NCBI GenBank assembly: GCA_903851045.1
Contig: CAINNF010000019.1
Coordinates: 1-47,853, forward strand
Length of the DNA stretch: 47,853 nucleotides
Reading direction: 5' to 3'
Source of the DNA: Candidatus Adlerbacteria bacterium
Lineage (GTDB): Bacteria > Patescibacteriota > Minisyncoccia > Phycocordibacterales > SBAW01
The notes beneath the pieces were generated by a model. The model did no database searches. It saw nothing but the letters and a program-made list of their open reading frames with translations, and was not told the DNA's origin. The position numbers were made by a program, and so were the translations under genes. Positions 6,080 to 23,174 of the stretch are shown in pieces. Each line of letters opens with the position of its first letter. Positions within the stretch are counted from its first letter, which is position 1.

Positions 6080-7300
6080 TTAGAATCGTTTCGACGGGTC
6101 TTTCACCTCCGTAAATTCGGCATCGATGATCGAAGCCGCTTTCCCGCCGCGCTCCATCCGACGGATGTCGGCTTCGTTCTCGTCCGTCGCTGAGAGCAGG
6201 GTGTCGATCTCTTGCTTCAGTACGGGCAGAGAGTTAGTCTTGTAGCGAGCGATCTCGTTCAGAGAGGCGCGGGCTTTGGCGAAGGCCTGCAGTAGTCGCG
6301 TCAGGTCCTGTCCATCACCAGTTGCTTGCTTGTAGACCTCTACTCCTTGTGTTTGGAGCGTGTCCGCAGCCCTCTCCAGCATGGTTTGGGCTGTGTTTTC
6401 GAGTGCCTCGAATTTTGTCAGAGTAGTCCTTTGGTCGGCAAGCGCAAGCAGTAGCGTGGCGGCGACCCTAAGTACTTCGACCGAGTCGTCACAGCCCTGA
6501 TTCACACCCTCCAAGAGTTGGATATTGTTTTGGACAACGAGGCCGTTTGCCTGTATGCCGAACTGGTTGGTCCCGCGTCGCTTAAGGAGCGCCTTTTGAC
6601 GAAGGCGCAGCGGGAACAAGATCTCCTCCTGCAAAAACCGTTTCTGGTCACCTGCAGGAAGGTGTTCGAGTTCAGTTTCGACCTTCTTGTCGATCGCGAG
6701 CAAGTACTTGATTTTCCGCTCCAGCGCCAAAGTTTTCTGACGTCTGGCAACGATGTCGTCGCGCAGCGTTGCATTATCCCGCTTCAGCGTCTCGCCTTCT
6801 TTTTTTACCGAGTTCACGATGGCGCTGATTGATTCCCCAGCACTCTGAAGTTTGAGGAGATATCTCTGTACTGGACGTCCCACGCCAGGAATAAAGCTAA
6901 ACATGTGAGCGAGGGTACCGACAGTAAAGTCTCTTCCGACGGGATCGAGTGCTTGCATGGTCTGCTGCAACTCTAACAATCCGTTCGCCAAGACACCACC
7001 ATCGTCTGCCCGCGCTGCGAGCAGTTTAAGCGGCTGGTTGAGTAGTGCGCTTTGTGACCCGCTAGCAAGAACGTCAGCACCGAGATTTTCAACCTCTTGG
7101 CGCTTTCTCTCCTGCACATCGAATGCAGTACCGCTGATCGACAGCAGATCGCGAACGTATGCTCCAGCTTCAGCGTCGATGTCGCGGTCAACGGCTGGGT
7201 CAAACGTGACAGCTTGTGCTGGTACAGGAACCAGTTCCTGTTTGATAGCGGCGACAGGAAGTTCGAGTTTCAGTGGCTTGTCAGTTATGGTTTCCGACAT
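6080..7300 (-). CDS. TelA-like toxic anion resistance family protein
   Basis: Helical TelA-like sequence (VGTLAHMFSFIPGVGRPVQRYLLKLQSAGESISAIVNSVKKEGETLKRDNATL... LNEIARYKTNSLPVLKQEID). Confidence 0.82.
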   Translation of the reverse strand: MSETITDKPLKLELPVAAIKQELVPVPAQAVTFDPAVDRDIDAEAGAYVRDLLSISGTAFDVQERKRQEVENLGADVLASGSQSALLNQPLKLLAARADDGGVLANGLLELQQTMQALDPVGRDFTVGTLAHMFSFIPGVGRPVQRYLLKLQSAGESISAIVNSVKKEGETLKRDNATLRDDIVARRQKTLALERKIKYLLAIDKKVETELEHLPAGDQKRFLQEEILFPLRLRQKALLKRRGTNQFGIQANGLVVQNNIQLLEGVNQGCDDSVEVLRVAATLLLALADQRTTLTKFEALENTAQTMLERAADTLQTQGVEVYKQATGDGQDLTRLLQAFAKARASLNEIARYKTNSLPVLKQEIDTLLSATDENEADIRRMERGGKAASIIDAEFTEVKDPSKRF

Positions 7301-7312
7301 GGTTCACACCTC

Positions 7313-8122
7313 TTACTGTTGCATGTTTCGTTTGTCGTAGATGCCAGCACGGCTGGCGAGTCGGGCGAGTTCGCTAATGGCTGTTTCGTAGTCCATCGTT
7401 GCTCTACCGACCTTCGTTTCAATCCTCGCGATAGCGATGGTGGTCTCGGTAAGGACCGTGACCGCTTTCTCGCTGTACGCGACGATCGCGTTGACGCCGC
7501 GCTTCACGTCGGCGATGAGGGTAAGGCGCTTGGTGAGCGCCTCTCGCTCGTCTCCTTCGGTGGCGTGCGCGAGCTCAGTCTCGAGTCGCGCAGTATCGAT
7601 GTTCTCGATGCTGCGCAGCTGTCTCGCCGCCGACTCGAGCGTGTCGAGGGCGGCGAGATATACCTGTTCGGCAGTGCCGAGGTATCGAGCATAGGTCAGC
7701 TCGGTCGGCTGCAGTTGTGTGCCGAGCACCTCCTTAAGCCGTTCGTATTGTGCCTTGAGTGCGGCAAGCTGTTGCACACCGTCCTCAAAACCAAGCACCT
7801 CGAACTCTCGGCGAAGCCGGTTGGGGAACGCAGCCAGGTAGTCTTGCTGCGTGGCTCGGAGCTCTGCCAAGTAATGCTGCGCGAACCACTCGTATCGGAA
7901 GAAGTAGTTCACGATGAAACTACTAATGCCGACCGTGCAGATCGCGAGTCCTCCATAGAACGCCCACGGGACGATAAGCAGCAGTCCCGCAGTGAGTCCA
8001 ACGATGCCGACCGTTGTGGGGTAGAGGGTGATGGGTAGGCTGACGGTGGCTTCTGCCACCGCCTTCCCGACCGCCCCTGGTGAGTAGTCGATCAGTGCGG
8101 GCGGTCCTGTTTTTTCGTCCAT
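7313..8122 (-). CDS. XpaC-like (5-bromo-4-chloroindolyl phosphate hydrolysis family) membrane protein, tentative
   Basis: Two TM segments then a coiled-coil domain; directly upstream of telA, the usual XpaC-TelA pairing. Start at 8122 chosen by AAGGAG RBS. Confidence 0.5.
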   Translation of the reverse strand: MDEKTGPPALIDYSPGAVGKAVAEATVSLPITLYPTTVGIVGLTAGLLLIVPWAFYGGLAICTVGISSFIVNYFFRYEWFAQHYLAELRATQQDYLAAFPNRLRREFEVLGFEDGVQQLAALKAQYERLKEVLGTQLQPTELTYARYLGTAEQVYLAALDTLESAARQLRSIENIDTARLETELAHATEGDEREALTKRLTLIADVKRGVNAIVAYSEKAVTVLTETTIAIARIETKVGRATMDYETAISELARLASRAGIYDKRNMQQ

Positions 8123-8132
8123 AGGCATCTCC

Positions 8133-9689
8133 TTATTCGCTGAGAAGAAGTAGGTCCACTCTCGGCAAGCGATCCATATAGCTTCGGTAGCTTTCGCCCC
8201 GATCTTGCGGCAATGGTCGCGCCGAGCCGAACCCAGCCACACGAATGCGGTTGGGGTCGATGTTGTACGTGACCTGCAGGTAGCGAGCCACGGCTTCGGC
8301 GCGTTCGGTCGAGAGCTCCTTATTTGCCGCTTCGTCACCGCCTGGTTTGGTATGACCTTCCACACGGATGCGATATCCAGGGAAGGTGCGCAGTGTCTCG
8401 ACCGTTTGGTCGAGCTGCTGTTTACCAGTCAACGTGAGTTGGTTGTTGCCGGACTGAAAGACGATCGGGCGCACCTTAAGCGTACCGACTGGTTTCAGGT
8501 TCGCCCATCCAGAATCATTCAACGGTGAAAACTGGCGGGCGAGCGAATCGACATTCGCCTGTGCCGCTGCGGTCTTGAGAGTCTCGTCAGCGTAGAGAGC
8601 GCCTACGAAGGTCGCATTGAAGATCAAACGAGCGTCCCCGTTCGGTAGGGGATTATTCGGCAGACCGTAGTAATCGGTCAAGACTCGTGCGGTCGTGTTG
8701 ATGACATCGACGATGCCGAACGAAGGGATGCCGCTGGTCGTGTTACCAAGGCCGAACCACTCTGTAGCATTCTCTCCCAGCGTATACCACTGGATGCCAC
8801 GGAGTATGATATCGGCTTGTTCACTGGTGACGCCCGAGTACTTCGCGACCGCAAGGCGGAGTTCCGCCGGGTGGTCTTTGTAGTACGAGAGCGTCTTCCA
8901 GTAATTGGCGAGCACTAACCGTACGACGTCTGGATGATCTCGACCGAAGTCGCGATTGACCAGAAAGACGTCGTTGATAAGCTTGTCGGTCTGGTCGGTC
9001 CCGATGAGTTTGACCATGCCTGGCAGAGCCAGAGCCTTGGTCACATCAGGTTCCCACAGCACCGCAACTTGTGCATCACCGGCAACGAGTCGTTTGAGAG
9101 CCTCGTTCGATCCGTCCGTCGGTACCCGCCATGCGCCAGCACGATTGCGCAGCAGTGGGATGTCGAAGTCGACGGCAATTGCTTTGAGCAGGTAGTCGCT
9201 CGGGGATTCGGGCGTCAGCGCGACCTTGATGTTCAGGTTGGTCTTCAGTCCGTCGAGGTTCGTGACCGCAGCACTGTTCGCCACGATGGCGTCAGCGCCG
9301 CGAGAACGATCGATCACGAAGCTGATGGTGGCCGGGTAGCTGTTTGCACGCCCGTATTCTATGTATGAGTCCACGGTGCCGACCGCAAGTGACAAGTCAC
9401 CGGTCTGCAGATTGTGATATCGCGTGGCGTACTTTGCCTGGTCGTCGCGGCACTCCAACGTATATCCTTCGGCTAGCATCCGCGCCTGCATTTGTTGGGA
9501 GCAAAGCGGGAAGTAACCGACGAAGTTGTCCATACCGATGACGACGCGGCCTTTTGAGCTTGCGGCGGCGCTGGTTTGGATCTCGTGATGCTCCGCGAAG
9601 ATCGGCCGGCTCAGCTTGAAGGTAATAATGAGCAGCAGGGCCACCATGAGTGCCAAAGCTGCTCCGACAAGACGGCGGTTCTGCGCCAT
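8133..9689 (-). CDS. Periplasmic substrate-binding domain fused to C-terminal OmpA-like domain
   Basis: N-terminal anchor; SBP-like VVIGMDNFVGYFPL...; OmpA-like YRIRVEGHTKPGGDEAANKELSTERAEAVARYLQ...NRIRVAGFGSARP. Confidence 0.82.
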   Translation of the reverse strand: MAQNRRLVGAALALMVALLLIITFKLSRPIFAEHHEIQTSAAASSKGRVVIGMDNFVGYFPLCSQQMQARMLAEGYTLECRDDQAKYATRYHNLQTGDLSLAVGTVDSYIEYGRANSYPATISFVIDRSRGADAIVANSAAVTNLDGLKTNLNIKVALTPESPSDYLLKAIAVDFDIPLLRNRAGAWRVPTDGSNEALKRLVAGDAQVAVLWEPDVTKALALPGMVKLIGTDQTDKLINDVFLVNRDFGRDHPDVVRLVLANYWKTLSYYKDHPAELRLAVAKYSGVTSEQADIILRGIQWYTLGENATEWFGLGNTTSGIPSFGIVDVINTTARVLTDYYGLPNNPLPNGDARLIFNATFVGALYADETLKTAAAQANVDSLARQFSPLNDSGWANLKPVGTLKVRPIVFQSGNNQLTLTGKQQLDQTVETLRTFPGYRIRVEGHTKPGGDEAANKELSTERAEAVARYLQVTYNIDPNRIRVAGFGSARPLPQDRGESYRSYMDRLPRVDLLLLSE

Positions 9690-9727
9690 CGGTATGGGTC
9701 CCTTTCAGAACTGGAATGAGAGTGAAT

Positions 9728-9754
9728 CGAGGAGGAGCTTGTGGCTCCTCCTCG
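9728..9754 (-). promoter_or_regulatory. Intercistronic hairpin between VWA lipoprotein and SBP-OmpA genes
   Basis: CGAGGAGGAGC-TTGTG-GCTCCTCCTCG, perfect 11-bp stem. Confidence 0.55.
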
Positions 9755-9766
9755 TTTAGCGTGTTA

Positions 9767-10501
9767 TCAGCGTCGAAACGACGTTGGGTCGAACACAAGC
9801 GTCTCGGTGGTTGCTTCTGCGAGACCTTTTCTCAGGTCGGCAGGGTTATTGACAGTGACGTACAGTGTGTACCCTGGGATGTTCAAGGAATGGTTCGTCA
9901 TGCAGAACCCAAGCGTCGCAACGCTGATCGGGGACTTGGTAACGATGTTTCGAGCAAGTCCTGCGACTGCCTGTGGGCCTCCGCCCTCGTTTGCTTCGCC
10001 ATCAGTGACGATGACGAGCATGTAGAGGCCGTAGCCATTCTGGCGTTGCTTTTGTTCGAGCAACATGTCGCGTCCGAGTTCGATAGCGTGGTAGAGGGGT
10101 GTTTGACCCCCCGCGACGATAGCGTTGATGCCCGCGTGAATGGAAGACTGATCGCCGCTCCCGAGTGGAGTGACGATACGTGGCCCACCATTGTAGTCGA
10201 AGACGACCAGCCCCTGATTAACGCCAGGTGGCTGCGCATCGATCGAAGCTATGACCGCGCTTTTCGCAACAACGATCTTTGTGTCCCTGTAGTCGCATAC
10301 AGGATCACTCATGCTCCCGCTGCCATCGATCACGTAGACGATGTTCTCGTCCAAGAAGTGATCGGGGGCAACGAGCTCGACTCGAGCGGATGTTTCTGAG
10401 TGTTTCGTCTCCTGTGGTGGTTTTTTGGGGTCGTCACATGCGGCGATGAGCAGCAAGCCGCTCATCGCCAAAAGGCTGACGAAGCGCCGATACTGTTGCA
10501 T
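9767..10501 (-). CDS. von Willebrand factor A domain lipoprotein
   Basis: Lipobox LLLIAAC; MIDAS VYVIDGSGSMSD, GGQTPL, VTDGEANEGGG. Confidence 0.88.
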   Translation of the reverse strand: MQQYRRFVSLLAMSGLLLIAACDDPKKPPQETKHSETSARVELVAPDHFLDENIVYVIDGSGSMSDPVCDYRDTKIVVAKSAVIASIDAQPPGVNQGLVVFDYNGGPRIVTPLGSGDQSSIHAGINAIVAGGQTPLYHAIELGRDMLLEQKQRQNGYGLYMLVIVTDGEANEGGGPQAVAGLARNIVTKSPISVATLGFCMTNHSLNIPGYTLYVTVNNPADLRKGLAEATTETLVFDPTSFRR

Positions 10502-10522
10502 GGTCGTAAATCCTGTTTCCGA

Positions 10523-12265
10523 TCACTTTACGAAGACATCGGATTCGGTATCGACCGAAGTAAAGCTAAACCGTACCCGGCGACTCTGGACCCACTCCTG
10601 ATCCGTTTGCGGTTTGCAAGCAAGGGTTATCTCGCCGCTCGAGTCATGTACGCACCCAGGCGCATCCACACCCCACCCAGTTACGTTGAACTGGCCAGGA
10701 TCGAAGGTGATGCCTTTGGTCTTCGCATAAGCGATTACGGCATCCCGAACGGCGTTCGCACGCCGAAGTGACAGATTCTTGAGCCCTTGTCGCTGCTTAG
10801 TAAGTGTATCCGGTGAAAGCCTCGGCTTCTCTGGATCGACAAGGCCAAGACTGGTGAGATACCCCGAAGGGTCGACGTACCCTTGGATATCGATCAGATC
10901 GCCCGCATTTTCTACGGCGCGTTTGATTATGTTTTCAAACTGCGCCTGGTACAACGCTACCGGGAAGTCGCTTTGCCGAGGGCTGAAGAGTATGTTGAAC
11001 CCGAACAACTCACCTTGCTCCGTGTCGCGCTGCACGCGTCCCTCAAGGAAACGTGCCGCAGCCGCAGGGTTGAAGTGCGGCACCACGACGTCGCCTGTGT
11101 TCGTCAGATCGCGAGCCATACGTGTCCAGTCCCACCCAGCTTGTGTCAGAGACACCCGCCGGGTCAGAAGTCGCATCTGCATGAAGGCAGGTTGGATCTC
11201 GGCGGTGAGACCGTCGAATCCGGACGGATAGTTCGAGTCTGTGAAGAACCGAAAGTTGCCGCCATAGCCTGCCAGCCGCATACCTTGATACAGCTGAACG
11301 ATGTCGTCGCTGTCGGTCGGGTTATCCAAGAGGAGCCCAGCCGCAGCACTCACGAGGTCGCTGTACGACTTTTTGTCCGTATTGTTCGGACCCATGATCG
11401 CCACCGTTTTCTCGTCGGCGACCAGGAGCGCATGCGCCAGCGCCTCGATCCTGTCTCGGTTGGCGTCAAAGAAGTCCTTGCGGACAGCGTAGACGTCAGG
11501 GACGACACGACCAGCCTGTGCGGTCGAGAACAGAATACGGGCGCCCTTGACCGAGCCTTCGCGGCCGGTGCCAACGGTGCCGTGTGCGGTCAGAACCTGC
11601 GCTTCAGGCATGATGACGAATGCGGCTGCGACCGAGGGGTCGGAGCTCATTGCCGTAGCAGGACTGAACGAGTTCTTGTCGGTCACCAGCAGATCGGGGA
11701 CATACTTGATGGTGACGTCCGATGCGCTGAGACCGGCGGTTTGTAGCACGTTTACCAGAAGGTCGACGTGCGGACCGTAGGCCTGCAGGACGATAGTCTT
11801 GCCCTTCAGGTCGGTCAGCTCGTTGATGTCTCCGCGGACGACCAGGGCATCCGCCCCGGTCGACCACGACAACTGGTGAAAGACCACCATCTGCGTCCGT
11901 GGATCACGATTCGTTAGCTCGGAGGCCGTGTTGATCATGCCCAGCGTGCCGCGCAAAAACGGCGACCTGCACGTCAGGTAATCGTCCAGCTGTGCCCGGA
12001 AGTCGTCCCTCGATACGAGTTGGAGGTCCAGACCGTGCTGGTCGATGATACTGCCGCGTGCGGTACGTTTGGAGTTGCCGTTCGCGTAGCTGGTGGCGAT
12101 ATCAGCGCCCCATGCGATGACCGGCATGTTCCAGGGTTGTCCGACCTTGCAGTCGGCGACTCGTGACTGTGCCACCAAGGGCCCTTGGGTCACGTAGTTT
12201 CCGGCGTGTGCTGGCGCTGTGCCCACAAGGGCGCACAGTGCAAGCAGGATCTGAAGCATTCTCAC
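10523..12265 (-). CDS. Secreted substrate-binding-like protein with C-terminal OmpA-like domain
   Basis: Signal peptide ALVGTAPAHAG; SBP-like DLKGKTIVLQAYGPHVDLLVNVL; OmpA-like DIQGYVDPSG...LSLRRANAVRDAVIAYA...VTGWGVDAPG. Confidence 0.75.
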   Translation of the reverse strand: MRMLQILLALCALVGTAPAHAGNYVTQGPLVAQSRVADCKVGQPWNMPVIAWGADIATSYANGNSKRTARGSIIDQHGLDLQLVSRDDFRAQLDDYLTCRSPFLRGTLGMINTASELTNRDPRTQMVVFHQLSWSTGADALVVRGDINELTDLKGKTIVLQAYGPHVDLLVNVLQTAGLSASDVTIKYVPDLLVTDKNSFSPATAMSSDPSVAAAFVIMPEAQVLTAHGTVGTGREGSVKGARILFSTAQAGRVVPDVYAVRKDFFDANRDRIEALAHALLVADEKTVAIMGPNNTDKKSYSDLVSAAAGLLLDNPTDSDDIVQLYQGMRLAGYGGNFRFFTDSNYPSGFDGLTAEIQPAFMQMRLLTRRVSLTQAGWDWTRMARDLTNTGDVVVPHFNPAAAARFLEGRVQRDTEQGELFGFNILFSPRQSDFPVALYQAQFENIIKRAVENAGDLIDIQGYVDPSGYLTSLGLVDPEKPRLSPDTLTKQRQGLKNLSLRRANAVRDAVIAYAKTKGITFDPGQFNVTGWGVDAPGCVHDSSGEITLACKPQTDQEWVQSRRVRFSFTSVDTESDVFVK

Positions 12266-12426: not shown

Positions 12427-14562
12427 CTACCGTACGAACCACGAGGCTACATAGTGCCACAACGTGAACAGGAAGGATCGATGTACTGTTGTGCCAACGC
12501 TTGCAAGTTGTTCGGTCGGGATCGTGACGTGTTGCGCGATCGAAGTGTCCTTAGGTACCTGCTGTTTCGCCTTATGCACGTTCGTATGAGTGAGAGTAGG
12601 GAGAAGAGCTGCCGCTATTATTGGTGGCGTAGAGGTCGCTGGTGTGGCTGTGCTCAGTGGGGTCAGAGCGGCAACCGTTGTGGTAGGAGTGCTCGTAGCT
12701 TCCGGCGGGGTGGTCGTGGCGATAGATGTTGTTGTTGCTATGAGTAGTGAACTCGTCGAGAGGGGTACTCCTGCTGTGCCCGCCGCAGACGCAGCGGTCG
12801 TCGGGCGGTGCGAAAAATTTTGTAGCACCGTGTTCCATGGCCTCCCTTCAAGTCCGAGTAGTGCGTATGCGGTGGCCCAGATGCGCGTGGGAGTATCGGT
12901 CGTGGTCGGCTCGAATCCGCCATCCGCCTGTTGATAGGAGGTGAGGCAGGTGAGTGGTGTCGCGCCAGTGTTGCTTTGCCAGGTTGTCGGAGTGTCACCA
13001 AGCGCCGTTACCGCCTGCAGCACCCAGCTCGTTGCATATTCATTACCAACACAGCCTGAACCGCTTTCGTGTGATCGCAGGTAAGCCTTCGCTTTGGTAA
13101 GTGCGCTCGTGACCCCCTCAAGGGTGGTGAGTGGGGCGAGTGCTTGCGCTGCGGCTGCGGTCAGGTCGACACTGTCCCACGAGCCGTTGCTCGACTGTTG
13201 TGCAAGGATATATGCCGTCTCTTTTTGTATCAGAGGGTCCTGTACGGTGTATCCGGCGTGTAAGAGAGGGAACAGCGCAAATATGTCATCGTTGACCGAC
13301 GTTGAGTCGCCGGTCTGTGTGCCGTCGAAGGCATCGACGACGTGCTGCACCGCGTTGGTGCCGCCGTACGGATCATCACCGAGCGCTTCGAGCGCCATAG
13401 CGCGTCGCTCGTAGTCGGTGGTCCGGTCTGCTGGAGCGGTATCGAGATAGCTCCTGAGCGCATTTGCCGCGGTGAGTGCTGCCGGGTGCGACGCGAGCGC
13501 GAGTGCTACCCAGTCATCGATAAAGGTGCCTGTGAACGAACCATTCGCCCGCTGTTGTGACAGTAGGTAGGCGAGCGCAGTATCTCCTGGCTGCGGTGTC
13601 GGACTTCCGCCACCACCTCCACCCACGATCGTTGGGGGTGTCGACGTCGCTGCGTCAGTGACACTGAACGAGGTTGCGGGAGTGTAGTAGTCCTCCGCAA
13701 GTCCAGCGGCGTATGTACCGGGCTGTGACACGGTAAAGGTCGCTTGCCCCGAACTGGCCGAGGTGGATGTCGCGATAACCATCGGCGACCATGGGTTCGC
13801 TGGGTCGGGCTGCGTGATACCAACCACGAGTCCTGGTGCGGGTGTATAGGTGTTCGTTGCCGGGTCATAGGACTCTGCGGTGACGGTGAACGGCGCGTTC
13901 GTGGTCACGGAAGAAGTGTCGAGCACGACCTGGCGCGGATACCCAAAGTAGATAAAGACAATGTCATGGTCGCTCAATTGGTAGGAATCCATGCCGACCG
14001 ACGGTGTGGTACCGTTCACCGAATACTGCCACTTGCTGCACAGCGGTGTGGAGGAGGCTGCCGGTACCGAAAGACAGTTGAGGTAGAACGCGCCGTATGA
14101 CGCATAATACTGCAGGTCGCTGATCGTAAAGTCGGTCGAACTTGCCGCAAGCAGCTCCAGTGCGGCCAAGACGCTCTTTGCTGACGAGGTGATCGGTGTC
14201 GTCGTGCCTGTCGGTGTGATGCTTGTGGTCGTTGCGTTCGGCGAAAGAGCAATAAGGCTTGATGTCGCTATGGTGTCACCAGCACGAATCGTGATCTGTA
14301 CGGTTTCGGTTGGTGTGGTGGGGGCGGCGAGCGACGTGTCGCTTTCTCCAACTGCAGGACTACAAGGGGACGTTTCCGAAAGCGACACGTCGCTCGCCGC
14401 AGATACACACGTGGATGTTGCTATCGATACATCTGTAGTACTCGTAGCCACCACGTCGGGTGTGCTGCTAGCAGCATCATCGGCGTGTGCGAACGAGGAG
14501 GGTACGCACAAAAATAGTAAAAAACCGAACAGCAACACACGCACCGAGGTGGTATATGTCAT
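12427..14562 (-). CDS. Secreted DUF4430 (transcobalamin C-terminal-like) plus terpene-cyclase/prenyltransferase-like alpha/alpha-toroid repeat protein, C-terminal TM
   Basis: Signal peptide; DUF4430-like FYLNCLSV...CSKWQYSVNGTTPSVGMDSYQLSDHDIVFIYFG; repeats ALAYLLSQQRANGSF, YILAQQSSNGSWDSVDLTAAAAQAL; Ser/Thr-rich tail; C-terminal TM. Start 14562 chosen because 14604 lies in the riboswitch. Confidence 0.75.
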   Translation of the reverse strand: MTYTTSVRVLLFGFLLFLCVPSSFAHADDAASSTPDVVATSTTDVSIATSTCVSAASDVSLSETSPCSPAVGESDTSLAAPTTPTETVQITIRAGDTIATSSLIALSPNATTTSITPTGTTTPITSSAKSVLAALELLAASSTDFTISDLQYYASYGAFYLNCLSVPAASSTPLCSKWQYSVNGTTPSVGMDSYQLSDHDIVFIYFGYPRQVVLDTSSVTTNAPFTVTAESYDPATNTYTPAPGLVVGITQPDPANPWSPMVIATSTSASSGQATFTVSQPGTYAAGLAEDYYTPATSFSVTDAATSTPPTIVGGGGGGSPTPQPGDTALAYLLSQQRANGSFTGTFIDDWVALALASHPAALTAANALRSYLDTAPADRTTDYERRAMALEALGDDPYGGTNAVQHVVDAFDGTQTGDSTSVNDDIFALFPLLHAGYTVQDPLIQKETAYILAQQSSNGSWDSVDLTAAAAQALAPLTTLEGVTSALTKAKAYLRSHESGSGCVGNEYATSWVLQAVTALGDTPTTWQSNTGATPLTCLTSYQQADGGFEPTTTDTPTRIWATAYALLGLEGRPWNTVLQNFSHRPTTAASAAGTAGVPLSTSSLLIATTTSIATTTPPEATSTPTTTVAALTPLSTATPATSTPPIIAAALLPTLTHTNVHKAKQQVPKDTSIAQHVTIPTEQLASVGTTVHRSFLFTLWHYVASWFVR

Positions 14563-14599
14563 ACGCCTTGCTCGAGGCACTTGTGTGGATAAATAGTTC

Positions 14600-14694
14600 G
14601 TCAAGCGTCGGTATTCGGACTTGATCCTGGATCTCTCAGGACTTACCGTAGCGGCACTGTGGAGGACTTACACCTCTCTTCCCCTTCGCTCGAC
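14600..14694 (-). ncRNA. Cobalamin (B12) riboswitch-like element
   Basis: Minus strand: GTCGAGCG AAGGGGAAGAGAGGTGTAAGTCCTCCACAGTGCCGCTACGGTAAGTCCTGAGAGATCCAGGATCAAGTCCGAATACCGA CGCTTGAC. Matches the B12-box pattern (GGTGnAAgTCC...CnGnnCCGCnACnGT...AGTCCGnATACC) with an 8-bp closing P1. Confidence 0.85.
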
Positions 14695-14716
14695 ATGATC
14701 GGACAGAACCCTCGCA

Positions 14717-15268
14717 CTATACGCGGACGTGTAACGCTTGTGCAAGCCGCTCGCGCATGGTGCGAGCACGCACGATAACCTCGCTACCGTACACGAACAC
14801 ACCAAAGAGAAGTGGCGTGTACAGTACGTCACCCAGAAGCATGTTGCGGTAGAACGGCAACCCGAGCGTGTAGCAATAGACGAGTCCTTCGACCGTTTTC
14901 GCGTACCACGGCGAGAATGCCCACACCGCAAAGTTCGTGACGATGAAGAACAAGAACGAAGAGGCGAGGACGAGCGCCGCACCCGTAAAGAGGTTTGGAT
15001 ATCTTTTGAGTATAAAGCTACCGATACCGATGAGCGCGAAGGAGCCGTAGACGCTCAACATCACACGCCAGTCGTAGAATCCGATGATAAGGTCGGAGAG
15101 AAGGAGTGCGAGTAAGGGTACCGCCACCGCCCAAGTTCTCCCTAAGTACACACCCGAGATGAGAGCGATTGCGGTGATCGGTGTCGCGTCGGGCAGGTGG
15201 AAGGCGAGTCGCACCGCAAGCGTGAAGAGGACGAGACCGAAGGCTATCAGAAAGTTTTTGTATCGCAT
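14717..15268 (-). CDS. DUF6580-like / ECF transporter S-component-like membrane protein
   Basis: About 6 TM segments; PDATPITAIALISGVYLG, LLALLLSDLIIGFYDWRVMLSVYGSFALIG typical of this family. Confidence 0.7.
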   Translation of the reverse strand: MRYKNFLIAFGLVLFTLAVRLAFHLPDATPITAIALISGVYLGRTWAVAVPLLALLLSDLIIGFYDWRVMLSVYGSFALIGIGSFILKRYPNLFTGAALVLASSFLFFIVTNFAVWAFSPWYAKTVEGLVYCYTLGLPFYRNMLLGDVLYTPLLFGVFVYGSEVIVRARTMRERLAQALHVRV

Positions 15269-15270
15269 GA

Positions 15271-15816
15271 CTATTGTCGTGATGGGCCGAACTGCCACGC
15301 AACCCGGTCGCCGTTGTGTAGTATATACCCACTTGCGCCGATCTGGGGCTCGACACCGTTCACTGTATATTGCCAATAGTTTTTATTGGTACCATTGGTG
15401 AGTCCGCCCATACTCGTGATCAGTGCCCCAAGCCCCGTATAGTTTTGAACCTCCAACTGTAGGTGTGGGTCTTTGGTACTGAGTGTCTGCAGAAGGGTGA
15501 GAAGGGTCTCGTTCGCGGTGATAGTAACCTGTTTGTCAGTATAGAGACCTTGTATGGAGAGCGAAATGCTCGGGCCGTTTGGTGCGGTGGCAGTGTGTTG
15601 TGGGGTGGTGGATGTATGTAATGTATCGTGCGCAATAGGTACGGACCCCATGTTCGATGGGTGAGTGTCGTTTGTGGTAGTGGGAGAGTCTATCTGACGG
15701 GACAGGCTCACCCGCAGCGTCGGTGCCTTCGCCTCATGGGTGTGCAGGAGAAAGCCTGCCGCGATAGCGACGATGATGCATAGTCCCGGCACCGCATACC
15801 AGAGGTGTTGGTTCAT
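15271..15816 (-). CDS. Membrane-anchored DUF4430 (transcobalamin C-terminal-like) protein
   Basis: N-terminal TM; LSIQGLYTDKQVTITANETLLTLLQTL...GGLTNGTNKNYWQYTVNGVEPQIGASGYILHNGDRVAWQFGPS. Confidence 0.78.
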   Translation of the reverse strand: MNQHLWYAVPGLCIIVAIAAGFLLHTHEAKAPTLRVSLSRQIDSPTTTNDTHPSNMGSVPIAHDTLHTSTTPQHTATAPNGPSISLSIQGLYTDKQVTITANETLLTLLQTLSTKDPHLQLEVQNYTGLGALITSMGGLTNGTNKNYWQYTVNGVEPQIGASGYILHNGDRVAWQFGPSRQ

Positions 15817-15842
15817 AGACCCAAGTATCATATACTACAGGC

Positions 15843-16409
15843 ATGTTGTATACACGCAAAGGGGATACCGGCACGACCGAACTGTTCGGATCGCCCGACC
15901 GATTACCGAAAGATTGCCCGTTATTCGAAGCGCTCGGCACCGTGGACGAACTCAATTCGCTCTTAGGCGTCTGCTTCGCACAAGCGCATAGTGCCGCCGA
16001 CACGGCCGACTCGAGCCCGACCACGGTGGAGTACCGTCACCTCGCAGAACTCATACGAAACGTCCAACAAGACCTTTTTATCGTCCAGGCGGAGTTGGCG
16101 GGTGCCCCCAAGACGCTTGATGAAGCGCACGTGTTGCACCTAGAATCGTGTATCGCCGAAGTAGAGTCGTATATAACGAATCCTCACTCGTTTGTCATTG
16201 CGGGCGGCTCCGAACTTTCGGCCTATTTCGACTACGCACGAGCGGTCTCACGTCGAGCCGAGCGCCACGTGCTCGCGGTACGAGGCGACTATCCAACCTC
16301 CGCCGACACTCAAAAATATCTTAACCGCCTCTCCAGCTTCCTCTACGCTCTTGCAAGAAAAGCCAACAAGCTCGCCGAGTCAAAGGAGGCAAAGCCGACG
16401 TATACATAG
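15843..16409 (+). CDS. ATP:cob(I)alamin adenosyltransferase (PduO/MMAB type)
   Basis: YTRKGDTGTTELFG, FEALGTVDELNSLLG, IQ...DLFIVQAELAG, FVIAGGSELSAYFDYARAVSRRAER, YLNRLSSFLYALAR. Confidence 0.93.
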   Translation: MLYTRKGDTGTTELFGSPDRLPKDCPLFEALGTVDELNSLLGVCFAQAHSAADTADSSPTTVEYRHLAELIRNVQQDLFIVQAELAGAPKTLDEAHVLHLESCIAEVESYITNPHSFVIAGGSELSAYFDYARAVSRRAERHVLAVRGDYPTSADTQKYLNRLSSFLYALARKANKLAESKEAKPTYT

Positions 16410-16433
16410 GGCAATTCTGAGGGTTGTTTTCTA

Positions 16434-16463
16434 TTGACATATATACACCTAATGTATTAAAAT
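16434..16463 (+). promoter_or_regulatory. Sigma70-like promoter
   Basis: TTGACA at about 16434 with AT-rich -10 region (TATTAAAAT) upstream of the GTG at 16533. Confidence 0.5.
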
Positions 16464-16532
16464 GTTGGCAGCTTAGCTCGGGCTCAAAACCCACTTTGGT
16501 ACATTCACAAGCACAACACAGGAGTACGGCTC

Positions 16533-17573
16533 GTGGAGATCAACGACCTGACCATCACTCAGAATAACGATGGTAGCTATACGTGGAGCACTCCCAAACC
16601 ACTGCCTGTCTGCTTTGATGAGCGGTGGAGTGATGCAGAACTGCAGCACTTCATCGACGACGTCATCGAAGTTGCCCGCCAGCAGTGCACCTATCGCGGT
16701 GCATCTCGGGAGGAGCATGACGCACTAACCAAGGACCAGCGACGCACGAGGGGGCTGGAAATGTTCGACCAGCTCATCCGACAGAGCGAGCCGCCCGGAC
16801 TGACCATATTCCAACGCGCCCTCTTCTGGGCGAGTTCGTGGTGGTGGCACACCGACACGCGTATGCTGGCAAGAGTCTTCTTTCCCAACAAAGATGAGAT
16901 CGGCGAAGCACAAGCGAGCATCGCCGATTTCATCATCCCGGCGCTGCCACAGTCCATACAGGAGTGTGTGAAGGATATGGTCTTGGTTGAAACGGCAAGC
17001 AATCCTCGTCACTTCGCCCTCCTGTTTGTCAGCCGCGACGATAATCTGCGGCGTATTGTCACCGATACGCAACTCTTCGAACTCACGGGTGTCATGGGCT
17101 ACGTCTACCTCGACATCACCCATGACGGCAAGCCGGTTGCCCGCTCGTGCTGCGAGCGAGGTGGTGGTCGCGCCTTCTTTGATGGCGTACGACTGATGAG
17201 CCATCCTCGCTTCGAGACGTGCGCCCCCAAGACCGTGATGGTTGACAGTGGCTACAAGGTTAACTCGACTGGTTGCACTATCGTTAACGGCATGCTGTTC
17301 CCGCTCATCGATGCGGACGACCCAGTCGCTCACACCCACGGTGCTTTTTTTGGATTCACCGCATTCGATCAAAACGATGTAGTGAGAGCAACGGAGATGG
17401 CGCAAGCGTCTGGAACTCGTATGAGGGTGGATGGCAGCCGTGTGACCTTGGACGGCACCGAACTGAAACCTACAGGCGTGTTCTACCCGAGCGAGACAAC
17501 TCTGTTGCCGACTGGCTTCACCCACTTCGGTTGGTCGAAGTTCAGGCCGATCAACTACTCAAAGATTGCCTGA
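16533..17573 (+). CDS. Hypothetical protein (346 aa)
   Basis: Long ORF with GTG start, own promoter and upstream AGGAG; no family recognised. Confidence 0.75.
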   Translation: MEINDLTITQNNDGSYTWSTPKPLPVCFDERWSDAELQHFIDDVIEVARQQCTYRGASREEHDALTKDQRRTRGLEMFDQLIRQSEPPGLTIFQRALFWASSWWWHTDTRMLARVFFPNKDEIGEAQASIADFIIPALPQSIQECVKDMVLVETASNPRHFALLFVSRDDNLRRIVTDTQLFELTGVMGYVYLDITHDGKPVARSCCERGGGRAFFDGVRLMSHPRFETCAPKTVMVDSGYKVNSTGCTIVNGMLFPLIDADDPVAHTHGAFFGFTAFDQNDVVRATEMAQASGTRMRVDGSRVTLDGTELKPTGVFYPSETTLLPTGFTHFGWSKFRPINYSKIA

Positions 17574-17696
17574 CCAAACCAGCACCATACACCCGCAGCA
17601 CGGAGGTCCAACCCCTCCTGCTGCGGTTCTGTTTTTCTATACCCTTCTGTCTTGCTGCAGTCGTCTACGGCTCACCATTGTCGCGTGGAGAATCTG

Positions 17697-18113
17697 TTAG
17701 CTGTGTCGCTCCTCTAACTTCTCGATATGCTCGAGCTCGGCGTCTATCTTATCTATCTTGTGGAGGATGTAGTCGGTCGTTGTCTTCTCTGAGCGGACCT
17801 CGCGTTCGGTCTTCTCGGCCAGCTGCTCCTCTTGTTTGACCAATCTCTCTTCTCCGAGCACGTCAGTAAGTATCATACGGTCGCCGAGGAAGACCGAAAT
17901 AAGTAAGCCGGTGACCATGAGCATTGCTACGCCAGTGATGATCGAGCCAGGGCCAAAGAGGACAGGTGCAAGTTCGGCTGTCTCCCACACACCCTTCCAA
18001 AACAGTACGACACCAACACCTCCCACGAGCGCATACAGCACGGGCCGATGACCGAGCCAGCTGCGAATATGGTCGTCACCTCGACGAAAAAAGTGCAGCA
18101 CTTTGCGCAACAT
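17697..18113 (-). CDS. Small membrane protein with two TM segments and C-terminal coiled coil
   Basis: Hydrophobic segments followed by EEQLAEKTEREVRSEKTTTDYILHKIDKIDAELEHIEKLEE. Confidence 0.7.
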   Translation of the reverse strand: MLRKVLHFFRRGDDHIRSWLGHRPVLYALVGGVGVVLFWKGVWETAELAPVLFGPGSIITGVAMLMVTGLLISVFLGDRMILTDVLGEERLVKQEEQLAEKTEREVRSEKTTTDYILHKIDKIDAELEHIEKLEERHS

Positions 18114-18139
18114 GAATTCATAATACCACGTACCGCTTG

Positions 18140-18211
18140 GGAAACAGCAAAAGGCACTTTGTGCAGGGGTGCTGTGTATCTCCCCGGAGCAAAGTGCCTT
18201 TTGCTGTTTCC
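18140..18211 (-). repeat. Long perfect hairpin (22-bp arms, 28-nt loop) 3' of the RNR gene
   Basis: GGAAACAGCAAAAGGCACTTTG (18140-18161) and CAAAGTGCCTTTTGCTGTTTCC (18190-18211) are exact reverse complements. Confidence 0.9.
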
Positions 18212-18254
18212 TCTTACGCTAGTGTTTTTGTGTTTTCTGTAAGTACGTTCGGTG

Positions 18255-20576
18255 TTATGCCGCAGTGGAACTCGGCACCACCATGTCGATGTCGCACACG
18301 CCGCCGATACAGGCGAGTTCTTTCTTTTGTTCGGTCTCGTCGGTCTTCTCGTAGGTGACGAGCTTGCCGAAGTCGATATCGGGGAAGTTCGCCTTCATCT
18401 CGTCGTACTGCTTCTTGTCGATGGTCTCGTAGGGGGCCAAGCGGTAAACATGGTCGAAGCGTGGGAGGAAGGAGAGGCCACCGATGATGTCCCAATTCTT
18501 CTGCACCCAGTCGACGACGGCGATCCACTCGTCTTCGCCGACCGAGATGGTCGCCGAAGGGTTGTGCTCAGTGAAGTTCAGTTTGATGTTCTTCCAATAC
18601 TCCAGCTGCTCCAGCGCCGAGAAGTCGTCCTTGAACTTCGAGCTATCCGGCGACTCGATAGGGAACTCCAGCACGAACGTGCTCGCGGTCTCCGCGTTCT
18701 GGCCGACCTCGGGGTACACTGGTACGCCCTGGTCGCGTAGCATCTTAAAGAGCGAGTCGGTCGCCGAAATGCGCACGCGGCGGATGTAGTACTTGGCGTG
18801 ACGTGGGTGGATGCCCGAGGAGCAGTTGAAGGTCTGCGACACGGTGCCCGACGGTTTGACCGCGGTGACCGAGTTCGACGGGGCGATGCCGAACCTCTTC
18901 GCGAATTCCGCATTGACCGCCACGGCGGTGTCGCGGATAGCGCGTAGGTTCTCTGGCTTGCGTGCGGCGTCACTGTCCCACTGCCCGGTGACCGAGACAC
19001 CAAGGAGCGCCTCTTCACGACAATGTTCGGCCCATTCAGGCGAGATGTACTTGAAGTTCGTAAGCGACGCCTGGTAGGTGCCCAGTATAGCGGCAAGACG
19101 CGCTTTGCGAAGGAGCGACTCACGGGTGTCGTCCGCGCGTGCGATGACCTCAGAGAGGTTGCAGAACTGCTTGGACTGGAGGATGATCTCGCCGCACGGG
19201 TTGGTGCCGATCGGTCCGCGCACGACACCGTCCTCACCGAGGAAGCCAACTTTGTTGAAGTATTCGCCACGGCGCTTTGGGAGCGTGTTGCCGAGAGCGC
19301 CACGGTTAAAGATACCGCGTTCGCCCGAGCCGCTCTTCATGAGGGCGACCCACTCTTCGAGGAGTTCGGTGTTCGACGGCTTCGACTCGTACACGGCGGA
19401 GTTGTTCGCGACCATACGGTACGGCTCCGTGTTGAAGAACTGTCCCTTCTTGGCGTCACGCAACTCAACGTCATCGAGGTCGGAGAGCGAGATCATCGCG
19501 GTTCGGCGTACGCCGCCAGCGACCACACACTCGCCAATCTTGCAGATGATGTCGTGCACGTCGATAGGGCGCAGACGTCGCCCTTGGCGACGCACGATCT
19601 GTTCACGCGCGAAGGCGAGCAGCGACTTTAGAGGTTCTGGCCCCGATGCCTTGCCACCCATGACCTTCAAACGAGCGCCTGCCGGTCGGATCATCGAAAA
19701 GTCGAAGTCGATGTCCTTGCCGCTGTACCACGTAGTGACACCGAGCGTGAGCGCGTTGCACCACCCCTCCTTAGAGTCGGCTATCATGTGCGTCGGAGCC
19801 TTCTTGCCTTTTTGCTTCTGGATCTGTGGCAGTTGCTCGACGTTCTGGCTCTCGACCGCGAACCCTACGCCGCAGCCTTGCATCGAAAGGTACATGATCT
19901 CCGCGAAGTCTTCGAGCTTGGTCGGTGCGATAAAGGTGCAGTTGTAGGCGCAGGTGTTGCAGCGTCGCGCTGCTTCGCCAGAGAACTGCATGAGTCGCAT
20001 CGAGGGCATCACTTCCTGACGCAGGATCCCTTCGCGCACCTCGGCGTATTCTGCGGCGGTCAGTTTGGCACCCAGATTCTCCTGCATGAACGACATGTAA
20101 CGGTCGACGGTTTCGACCCAGGTCTCGCGACGACCTTCGGACTCGATCCAACGCGCATAGGTGCGCAGGTAGACGAACTCGCCCAAGGGGTTATCTTTGA
20201 AATACTTCTTGCTCTCAGCCACGAGCGCACGGACATGTTCGGGCACATCGCCTTGTTTTTGGCGCATACGAGCACGCTCGGCTCGGTACAGGATGTAGGC
20301 TTTCGCGGTCGCCGGGAACTCCATCAGCATGAGCTCTGTCTCGACCTCGTCCTGTACGTTCTCGACGGTCGGCGCATACGACGCATCCGCGGTCTTTTTC
20401 GCATGCAGCTTCTTTGCGACCGCTTTCGCGACCTTTTCGGGGGCCTTGTCTTGCAGTTCGCCCGCTGCCTTCATCGCTTTTTCGACGGCGACGGCGATCT
20501 TTTGCACATCGAACGGCACGATTGAACGATCTCGCTTGATAATGGTGGTCAACTCTACAGACTCCGCTCGTGGCAT
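18255..20576 (-). CDS. Adenosylcobalamin-dependent (class II) ribonucleotide reductase, RTPR-like with ATP-cone
   Basis: N-terminal ATP-cone-like KRDRSIVPFDVQKIAVAVEKAM; CNTCAYNCTFI, MQGCGVGFAVES, TNPCGEIILQSKQFCNLSEV; C-terminal ACIGGVCDID. Confidence 0.85.
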   Translation of the reverse strand: MPRAESVELTTIIKRDRSIVPFDVQKIAVAVEKAMKAAGELQDKAPEKVAKAVAKKLHAKKTADASYAPTVENVQDEVETELMLMEFPATAKAYILYRAERARMRQKQGDVPEHVRALVAESKKYFKDNPLGEFVYLRTYARWIESEGRRETWVETVDRYMSFMQENLGAKLTAAEYAEVREGILRQEVMPSMRLMQFSGEAARRCNTCAYNCTFIAPTKLEDFAEIMYLSMQGCGVGFAVESQNVEQLPQIQKQKGKKAPTHMIADSKEGWCNALTLGVTTWYSGKDIDFDFSMIRPAGARLKVMGGKASGPEPLKSLLAFAREQIVRRQGRRLRPIDVHDIICKIGECVVAGGVRRTAMISLSDLDDVELRDAKKGQFFNTEPYRMVANNSAVYESKPSNTELLEEWVALMKSGSGERGIFNRGALGNTLPKRRGEYFNKVGFLGEDGVVRGPIGTNPCGEIILQSKQFCNLSEVIARADDTRESLLRKARLAAILGTYQASLTNFKYISPEWAEHCREEALLGVSVTGQWDSDAARKPENLRAIRDTAVAVNAEFAKRFGIAPSNSVTAVKPSGTVSQTFNCSSGIHPRHAKYYIRRVRISATDSLFKMLRDQGVPVYPEVGQNAETASTFVLEFPIESPDSSKFKDDFSALEQLEYWKNIKLNFTEHNPSATISVGEDEWIAVVDWVQKNWDIIGGLSFLPRFDHVYRLAPYETIDKKQYDEMKANFPDIDFGKLVTYEKTDETEQKKELACIGGVCDIDMVVPSSTAA

Positions 20577-21087: not shown

Positions 21088-21801
21088 ATGCAAGAGATCA
21101 TCAACCACCTTGAGGAGCATAAAAAGAACGCTGGCTCGAAGCTCAACTGGCTGCGTGCGGCGGTCTTGGGTGCCAACGACGGTATCGTGTCGGTCGCCTC
21201 GATCGTGGTGGGAGTTGCTGCAGCATCCGATTCGAGAAGCTTCATACTGACCGCAGGTACTGCGGGTCTGGTGGCGGGCGCGCTTTCAATGGCAATGGGG
21301 GAATATGTATCGGTAAGCGCTCAAAGAGATACCGAGAAAGCGCTCCTTGCGAAGGAGCGCTTTGAACTTGAGAACTACCCCGAAGCAGAGCTCGAAGAAC
21401 TCGCCAAGATCTATCAAGTAAAGGGGCTATCGGAGGCGACCGCACATGCCGTAGCGAAGGAATTGACCGCCCGCGACGCGTTTGCCGCGCATGTCGAGGC
21501 AGAGTTGCGTCTTGACCCCGAGGATCTCACCAACCCGTGGCATGCCGCTATCGCTTCCGCACTTGCGTTCTTCAGTGGAGCTATCGTTCCCTTGGTGGTG
21601 ATATTGCTCCCGCCAGCGTCCGTTCGTCTTCCGGTCACCTTCGCGGCGGTCACGGTCGCCTTAGCTATCACCGGTACGCTCAGTGCACAGGTTGGTGGCG
21701 CTCACAAAGGGCGCGCAACGTTGCGCGTGATGGTGGGTGGACTCCTAGCGATGGCGGTCACCTTTGGTATCGGTAAGCTGGTCGGTCAGGTCGGGTTATA
21801 A
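21088..21801 (+). CDS. VIT1/CCC1-family metal transporter
   Basis: NWLRAAVLGANDGIVSVASIVVGVAAAS, AGALSMAMGEYVSVSAQRDTE. Confidence 0.93.
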   Translation: MQEIINHLEEHKKNAGSKLNWLRAAVLGANDGIVSVASIVVGVAAASDSRSFILTAGTAGLVAGALSMAMGEYVSVSAQRDTEKALLAKERFELENYPEAELEELAKIYQVKGLSEATAHAVAKELTARDAFAAHVEAELRLDPEDLTNPWHAAIASALAFFSGAIVPLVVILLPPASVRLPVTFAAVTVALAITGTLSAQVGGAHKGRATLRVMVGGLLAMAVTFGIGKLVGQVGL

Positions 21802-21809
21802 TCAATCGG

Positions 21810-23174
21810 ATGAAATTCAACAAGATCCTCGAATCCTTCTTTACGTATCCAGCGGAGACGCTCGAAGGTGGTGTCGAGGCGGCGCAGCGGGTTGAAGGTG
21901 CGCTCATTAGTAAGCGACCACTGTTAGTGGCAGAGAACTATCTCAACACGCTTGGACCGGGACTCACGACCGGTGCGGCAGACGATGACCCGTCGGGCAT
22001 CGCGACCTACTCCCAAACGGGAGCACAGTACGGGTTCGGACTCATCTGGCTTTCGCTGTTCAGCTTCCCGCTGATGGCGATCGTGCAGGAGATGTGTGCC
22101 CGTATCGCGCTCGTAACCGGCAAAGGACTCGCGGCGAACATCCGTACCCAGTTCCCGGTATGGGTGCTGTACGTGTGCACCAGTCTTCTCTTTGTTGCCA
22201 ACACGTTCAATCTCGGTGCGGACCTTGGTGCTATGGCGAAGGTGACCCAACTACTCGCTCCTCGGTTCGATTTCGGCCTGTTGGTGCTCTTCTTTGCGGT
22301 CGCGAGCCTTCTTTTACAGATCTTCACCACATACGCGCGCTATGCGCAGTATCTGAAGTATCTCACCATGACGCTTTTGGCGTATGTGGTCACCGCCTGT
22401 ATCATACATATCGACTGGAGCGTCGTGCTCTACCACACGGTCGTACCGACGCTTTCGTTCTCCAAGGATGAGCTTCTTCTCGTGTGCGCCATCCTCGGCA
22501 CGACGATCTCTCCCTACCTGTTCTTTTGGCAAACGTCGCAGGAGGTCGAGGAGGAGATACTGCACGGTCGCACGACCGTCGCGTCGCGTCGCGGTGCCAC
22601 TCATGAAGAGATACGACAGATGCGCACCGACGTGTGGACGGGGATGTTCTTCTCTAACGTCGTCATGTTCTTTATCATAGCGGTCTGTGCCGCGACGCTT
22701 GCGGCGAACGGTATCACGAACATCGCGACCGCCGACCAGGCCGCGCTCGCACTGCGCCCGCTTGCGGGCGAGTGGGCCTATCTCCTGTTCGCGCTCGGGG
22801 TGCTGGGTACCGGCATGCTCGCGGTCCCGGTGCTCGCTGGTTCGGCGTCCTATGCTATTTCGGAGAGTTTCGGATGGAAGACGGGGCTGTATCGCAAATT
22901 GAACGAAGCCTACGCCTTCTACGGTGTCATCATCGTCGCGATGATCGTCGGGTTGGCTCTTAACTTCGTTCACCTCGACCCGATCAAAGCGCTCATATAC
23001 TCCGCGGTCGCCAACGGTCTCATCGCACCGGTCATGCTGGTGTTCATCGTGCTCCTGGGGAGCAACAAGAAGCTGATGGGGGCACACGTGAACACCCGAC
23101 TCACCACCACACTCGGATGGGTCACCACCGCACTGATGGTCGTTGCCGGTGTCGCGGTCCTTGTGACGCTCTAA
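21810..23174 (+). CDS. Nramp-family divalent metal transporter (divergent motifs)
   Basis: LGPGLTTGAADDDPSGIATYSQTGAQYG; multi-TM; second signature ILGTTISPYLFFWQTSQEVEEE. Confidence 0.9.
   Translation: MKFNKILESFFTYPAETLEGGVEAAQRVEGALISKRPLLVAENYLNTLGPGLTTGAADDDPSGIATYSQTGAQYGFGLIWLSLFSFPLMAIVQEMCARIALVTGKGLAANIRTQFPVWVLYVCTSLLFVANTFNLGADLGAMAKVTQLLAPRFDFGLLVLFFAVASLLLQIFTTYARYAQYLKYLTMTLLAYVVTACIIHIDWSVVLYHTVVPTLSFSKDELLLVCAILGTTISPYLFFWQTSQEVEEEILHGRTTVASRRGATHEEIRQMRTDVWTGMFFSNVVMFFIIAVCAATLAANGITNIATADQAALALRPLAGEWAYLLFALGVLGTGMLAVPVLAGSASYAISESFGWKTGLYRKLNEAYAFYGVIIVAMIVGLALNFVHLDPIKALIYSAVANGLIAPVMLVFIVLLGSNKKLMGAHVNTRLTTTLGWVTTALMVVAGVAVLVTL

Follow-up and report, generated by a model that had tools for sequence, protein, structure and literature searches.

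A 47,853-nucleotide stretch of a Candidatus Adlerbacteria genome (the whole stretch analysed, hereafter the window) contains a set of genes and a cobalamin riboswitch that probably constitute a cobamide scavenging module, covering capture, uptake, activation and use. This reading, which had been put forward in a preliminary description of the sequence, is supported by the association of the riboswitch with its neighbours, by gene linkage and by the homologies of the encoded proteins. The host genome is a Patescibacterial MAG of 1.25 Mb (1.253 Mb), 96% complete, whose closest kin are Ca. Adlerbacteria. As inferred from these features, cobamide binding, hand-over, transport, energisation and repression by B12 would be connected as follows. 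A membrane-anchored small DUF4430 protein and a secreted DUF4430-toroid protein would bind cobamide on the surface of the cell in the way that the two-domain animal B12 carriers do, and would hand it over to DUF6580, a solitary protein of the CbrT/BtuM type that would carry it across the membrane, probably through toppling or a facilitated mechanism like that of BtuM, or else with the help of an unrecognised ATPase. PduO would then adenosylate the cobamide, and a class II ribonucleotide reductase (RNR) would consume the product. When B12 is plentiful, the riboswitch would shut off translation of the large binder. Weighed against such a module were the generic character of the toroid, the DUF6580 loci devoid of B12 markers, the DUF4430 proteins of pilus clusters, and the failure of solitary CbrT to sustain uptake, all of which are considered below.

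Pfam, TIGRFAM and Rfam scans recovered every element named in the preliminary description at its reported position. On the minus strand, the small DUF4430 gene (15271–15831; 186 amino acids; Pfam 9e-13, 48.9 bits) is followed by the DUF6580 gene (14717–15268; membrane protein of 183 amino acids; Pfam 3e-41, 141.8 bits), the cobalamin riboswitch aptamer (14590–14727; RF00174) and the long DUF4430-toroid gene (12427–14562; 711 amino acids; defined by Pfam, an AlphaFold model and a start-codon check). The ORF calls before start correction had been 14717–15376 for DUF6580 and 12427–14604 for the long gene, both on the minus strand; the most likely starts are the ATG at 15268, which abuts the stop of the small DUF4430 gene at 15271, and the ATG at 14562, respectively. 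The gene for a PduO-type cob(I)alamin adenosyltransferase (15843–16409, plus strand; Cob_adeno_trans/PduO, Pfam 145.1 bits) runs divergently from the small DUF4430 gene, and two unassigned ORFs separate it from the gene for an RTPR-like class II RNR (18255–20576, minus strand; ATP-cone, RNR_Alpha and RNR-II insertion domain). Since the adenosyltransferase gene sits on the plus strand, the B12 genes do not form a single operon. Adjoining them, at 6080–12265 on the minus strand, lies a cluster encoding TelA-like, OmpA-domain, VWA and substrate-binding-like proteins, while genes for VIT1-family and Nramp-family metal transporters are found side by side at 21088–23174 on the plus strand.

The riboswitch, located between the DUF6580 and long DUF4430 genes, scored 32.7 bits (gathering score 31.5) and has a B12 box. 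The margin of only 1.2 bits was weighed against the reading of the locus as a B12 module. It is the sole cobalamin riboswitch in the host genome, and the orthologous position is occupied in two other Ca. Adlerbacteria loci, L080 (34.5 bits) and L081 (33.5 bits), both over the cutoff; in a third, L082, the same aptamer and hairpin were recognised by eye in the same place. The hairpin in question, GCCTCGAGCAAGGC (14565–14578, minus strand), resembles a P13/expression platform and is present before the ATG in L080, L081 and L082 as well. That it ends 2 nt before the ATG suggests translational control of the long gene, and it probably blocks access of the ribosome once B12 has bound; the predicted direction of control is repression by B12. 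Comparable CGAGC hairpins occur in L089, L090, L091 and L120, where they are followed by intrinsic terminators, and these other lineages thus seem to use transcription control. At most, the direct target of the riboswitch is the long DUF4430-toroid gene; the adenosyltransferase and the RNR lie outside its control.

To place this arrangement in context, 194 genomes of the same class were surveyed with a riboswitch threshold of E <= 0.001. Ten contained a cobalamin riboswitch, which exceeded the gathering score in three. Nine of these ten riboswitches immediately precede a DUF4430 gene, and the remaining one stands at the head of a cobC-cobU-cobT-cobS-DUF71 operon, whose genes were named by reading their sequences. 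Sequence within 3 kb of DUF4430 matches made up only ∼0.2% of the total searched, so a pairing in 9 of 10 cases exceeds chance. A second scan covered named genomes collected by means of DUF6580, using the cobalamin-class cutoffs for RF00174 or RF01482. Among the 19 toroid loci found, nine had an over-cutoff cobalamin-class riboswitch near the start of a DUF4430 gene and none elsewhere in the locus, and one further locus carries an AdoCbl-II riboswitch (58.8 bits). The two surveys overlap (for instance, L090 is genome G162 and L120 is G102), meaning that their counts are not fully independent, and the survey counts rest on MAGs and on a simple ORF caller.

The two DUF4430 proteins are both over the PF14478 cutoff (26.2 bits for the long one). 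The small protein has an N-terminal membrane anchor, and a search of the PDB with it returned intrinsic factor as the top match (E 0.0023) followed by transcobalamin-1 (E 0.069); a tblastn search against plasmids gave no match. The proposal in the preliminary description that DUF4430 is transcobalamin-like stands: this domain and the beta domain of transcobalamin and intrinsic factor are homologues. The long protein begins with a signal peptide, DUF4430 (approximately residues 85–210) and an Ig-like domain, and continues with an alpha/alpha toroid (approximately residues 325–580; pLDDT about 70–95 in the AlphaFold model), a disordered Thr/Ser/Pro stalk and a short C-terminal helix. Like transcobalamin, intrinsic factor and haptocorrin (PF01122 plus DUF4430), it thus unites an alpha/alpha toroid and a DUF4430 domain in one secreted protein.

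The further suggestion that the toroid resembles the transcobalamin barrel was only partly borne out. A phmmer search of the PDB with the long protein found no match, and Foldseek did not discriminate: complement/alpha-2-macroglobulin proteins and terpene cyclases ranked first, with transcobalamin, haptocorrin and intrinsic factor slightly below the top toroid matches (E about 4e-6 to 9e-6). When only the toroids of Adlerbacteria were used to build a profile, terpene cyclases again came out on top, and transcobalamin did not appear until E 0.34. On PF01122, Pfam's eukaryotic cobalamin-binding family (cutoff 25), the window protein scored 16.3 bits, while its orthologues in L080 (30.2 bits) and L082 (26.6 bits) passed. 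The domain order in the window protein (DUF4430, Ig-like, toroid) is moreover the reverse of that of transcobalamin. The toroid is best described as a generic alpha/alpha toroid, not as specifically transcobalamin-like. The higher rank of terpene cyclases and complement/alpha-2-macroglobulin toroids in both Foldseek and sequence searches would agree with the protein being an adhesin or enzyme of the cell surface, akin to terpene cyclases or thioester-domain proteins, and sharing the locus by chance. Yet it lacks the DxDD motif, on which account a terpene-cyclase function was rejected, and the GCGEQ motif, on which account identity as a thioester protein was also rejected; in addition, the signal peptide, the fused DUF4430 domain, the control by a B12 riboswitch in many lineages, and the two Adlerbacteria orthologues over the PF01122 cutoff all argue in favour of a B12 binder, making an enzyme or adhesin improbable.

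The order toroid-then-DUF4430, as in transcobalamin, is found in many class relatives (L043, L051, L120). The window protein (12427–14562) and its counterpart in L050 (8196–10019) show the opposite order to these three, which looks like a domain swap or a circular rearrangement. In the toroid-first lineages, a further gene recurs between the long and small DUF4430 genes, encoding a small Ig-like protein that is secreted and has a transmembrane segment at its C terminus (L041 8745–9326, L043 8442–9098, L051 8918–9460, L086 6830–7330, L130 7354–7878); this protein, which is possibly a membrane anchor or adaptor, is absent from the window. A divergent DUF4430 subfamily was encountered in type IV pilus clusters (L071, L072, L074, L075, L076, L077), which hold T2SSE, T2SSF, N_methyl pilins and a prepilin peptidase; no B12 genes were seen around them. 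The presence of DUF4430 alone is consequently no proof of B12 binding.

With regard to DUF6580, a profile built from 12 members of the class gave as its best PDB match chain A of 6FNP (E 3.1e-10), and a larger alignment matched 6FNP alone (E 0.0021); the single window sequence gave a non-significant E of 0.66 against CbrT. The 6FNP structure shows the L. delbrueckii cobalamin transporter ECF-CbrT (PMC5997447), and DUF6580 is likely to be a distant homologue of CbrT, judging by these profile matches. The AlphaFold model (pLDDT 92.6) has an S-component fold, and its top Foldseek match was 8c7p, BtuM bound to cyanocobalamin (TM 0.67, E 0.0036), followed by the S-components for riboflavin, pantothenate and folate (RibU, PanT, FolT). 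With 6FNP best in sequence and BtuM best in fold, both top relatives are B12 proteins, and the description of DUF6580 as ECF-S-like is supported. His24 was invariant (24/24 sequences) and Cys132 was present in 17 of the 24; a role of His24 as cobalt ligand is speculation.

The neighbours of DUF6580 were also recorded. In the class survey, 13 of the 18 genomes with an over-cutoff DUF6580 had an adjoining DUF4430 gene. In the named scan, which yielded 74 DUF6580 loci, DUF4430 lay within 3.5 kb in 38, a class II RNR within 5 kb in 24, an adenosyltransferase (ATR) nearby in 10 and DUF71 in 2. At least one B12 marker was present in 52 of the 74, and the linkage of these genes in related genomes, proposed earlier as a check, holds well. 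In 33 loci the gene immediately upstream, in the same orientation, was a DUF4430 or toroid gene. A distant family (L036) again has the order RNR-ATR-DUF4430-DUF6580, L052 has DUF4430-DUF6580-RNR and L065 has RNR-DUF6580. The DUF71/COG2102 proteins of L051, L042, L113 and L066, encoded either beside DUF4430-DUF6580 or in a riboswitch-headed cobC-cobU-cobT-cobS operon, carry a B12-subgroup motif, ENGE[FY]H or the near form EQGEYH; ENGE[FY]H is the published signature of the DUF71 B12 subgroup (PMC3541065).

The remaining 22 of the 74 loci had no B12 marker, and in G084, G166 and G071, class genomes without any DUF4430, DUF6580 is found in polysaccharide-type clusters, which suggests that the family may not be purely B12-related. 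At L062, L063 and L064, with no DUF4430 in the genome, the clusters containing DUF6580 are apparent polysaccharide/glycosyltransferase clusters. These loci would fit a DUF6580 that moves another substrate (another vitamin, or a lipid or polysaccharide precursor) and whose B12 neighbourhood is incidental; for the window this is very improbable, given that the best sequence and fold matches in the PDB are both B12 proteins, that DUF6580 lies directly downstream of a DUF4430/toroid gene in the 33 loci mentioned, and that it stands beside a class II RNR and PduO in several families.

An important point is how transport by DUF6580 might be energised. The preliminary description had proposed looking for an ECF energising module elsewhere in the genome; PF02361 (CbiQ/EcfT) was not found there, nor in any of the 194 class genomes, although it was present in 10 of 14 control genomes. 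A BtuC-type permease (FecCD, PF01032), found in 13 of the 14 controls, was similarly absent from the host genome. Energisation by known ECF or BtuCD components was accordingly rejected, and transport would be performed by a solitary S-component. Precedents point in both directions: CbrT alone did not support growth of E. coli on B12 and needs its ECF module (PMC5997447), while BtuM supported B12-dependent growth of E. coli without a module, and its host is without EcfT (PMC6072759). DUF6580 resembles BtuM (8c7p; PMC6072759) in that both combine an S-component fold with the lack of an ECF module, in organisms that have no EcfT, but it has no detectable sequence kinship to BtuM and its Cys132 is not invariant. 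On balance, a BtuM-like solitary mode is moderately favoured over module-dependent transport.

The alternative would be that DUF6580 uses a T-component and ATPase too diverged for PF02361, or shared with another ABC system, the locus then encoding an ECF-type transporter of the usual kind plus an accessory binding protein, the situation in lactobacilli. The closest sequence relative of DUF6580 is indeed CbrT, with its requirement for a module, and the neighbourhood matches the nrdJ-cbrS-cbrT-pduO cluster of L. delbrueckii, a B12 auxotroph (PMC5997447). This explanation is nonetheless rather unlikely in view of the absence of CbiQ/EcfT from all 194 class genomes, set against its presence in most controls, and of the ability of BtuM, the closest fold match, to work without a module in an EcfT-free organism.

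The lactobacilli also bear on the proposal of an uptake route outside the known systems, which could be kept only in part, as they offer a close precedent. The L. delbrueckii cluster and the window share a class II RTPR-type RNR, a PduO ATR and a CbrT-related S-component. In L. rhamnosus a DUF4430 gene adjoins rtpR, and that source has a separate entry for an 'additional lipoprotein component of putative cobalamin ECF transporter' (PMC9963975). The window differs from the L. delbrueckii cluster in that EcfT is missing from the class, there are two DUF4430 proteins, one of them toroid-fused, a cobalamin riboswitch lies within the cluster, and DUF6580 is only distantly related to CbrT. What sets the present system apart from that of lactobacilli is its lack of an ECF module, the fusion to a toroid, the way the riboswitch is placed, and its spread among Patescibacteria. 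Surface proteins also scavenge B12 in Bacteroides, through BtuG/BtuB; the fold of BtuG is unrelated, and its partner is a TonB-dependent transporter of the outer membrane, of which none was seen at the window locus.

As to activation and use, PduO was over the TIGR00636 cutoff (132.3 versus 108.45 bits); the RNR matched PF17975 and PF21995, and TIGR02505 with E 5e-89, below the curated cutoff. Neither an R2 subunit (PF00268) nor NrdD (PF13597) was found in the 96% complete host genome; with the class II RNR as the only reductase detected, B12 is probably essential to the host. The absence of B12 biosynthesis genes noted for the window extends to the genome for the genes sought: tblastn with a relative's sequences for assembly of the lower ligand (cobC, cobU, cobT, cobS and DUF71) gave no match in 1.252 Mb of the 1.253 Mb.

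These results lead to the tentative proposal, held at somewhat under an even chance, that Patescibacteria import cobamides by means of riboswitch-controlled transcobalamin-like binders and a solitary CbrT/BtuM-type S-component with no ATPase module, the binder being a bacterial relative of animal transcobalamin and intrinsic factor. Searches of open-licence literature yielded no account of prokaryotic DUF4430 as a B12 binder, nor of DUF6580, although earlier predictions elsewhere, for example for lactobacilli, are possible. A concrete function is thereby proposed for two families hitherto without one, prokaryotic DUF4430 and DUF6580, together with a possible answer to the question of how B12 reaches Patescibacteria, many members of which encode a ribonucleotide reductase that depends on it. 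Should the solitary S-component prove able to work on its own, it would be a second case beside BtuM; should the DUF4430-toroid proteins bind B12, they would be bacterial kin of the human B12 carriers and might shed light on how those carriers arose.
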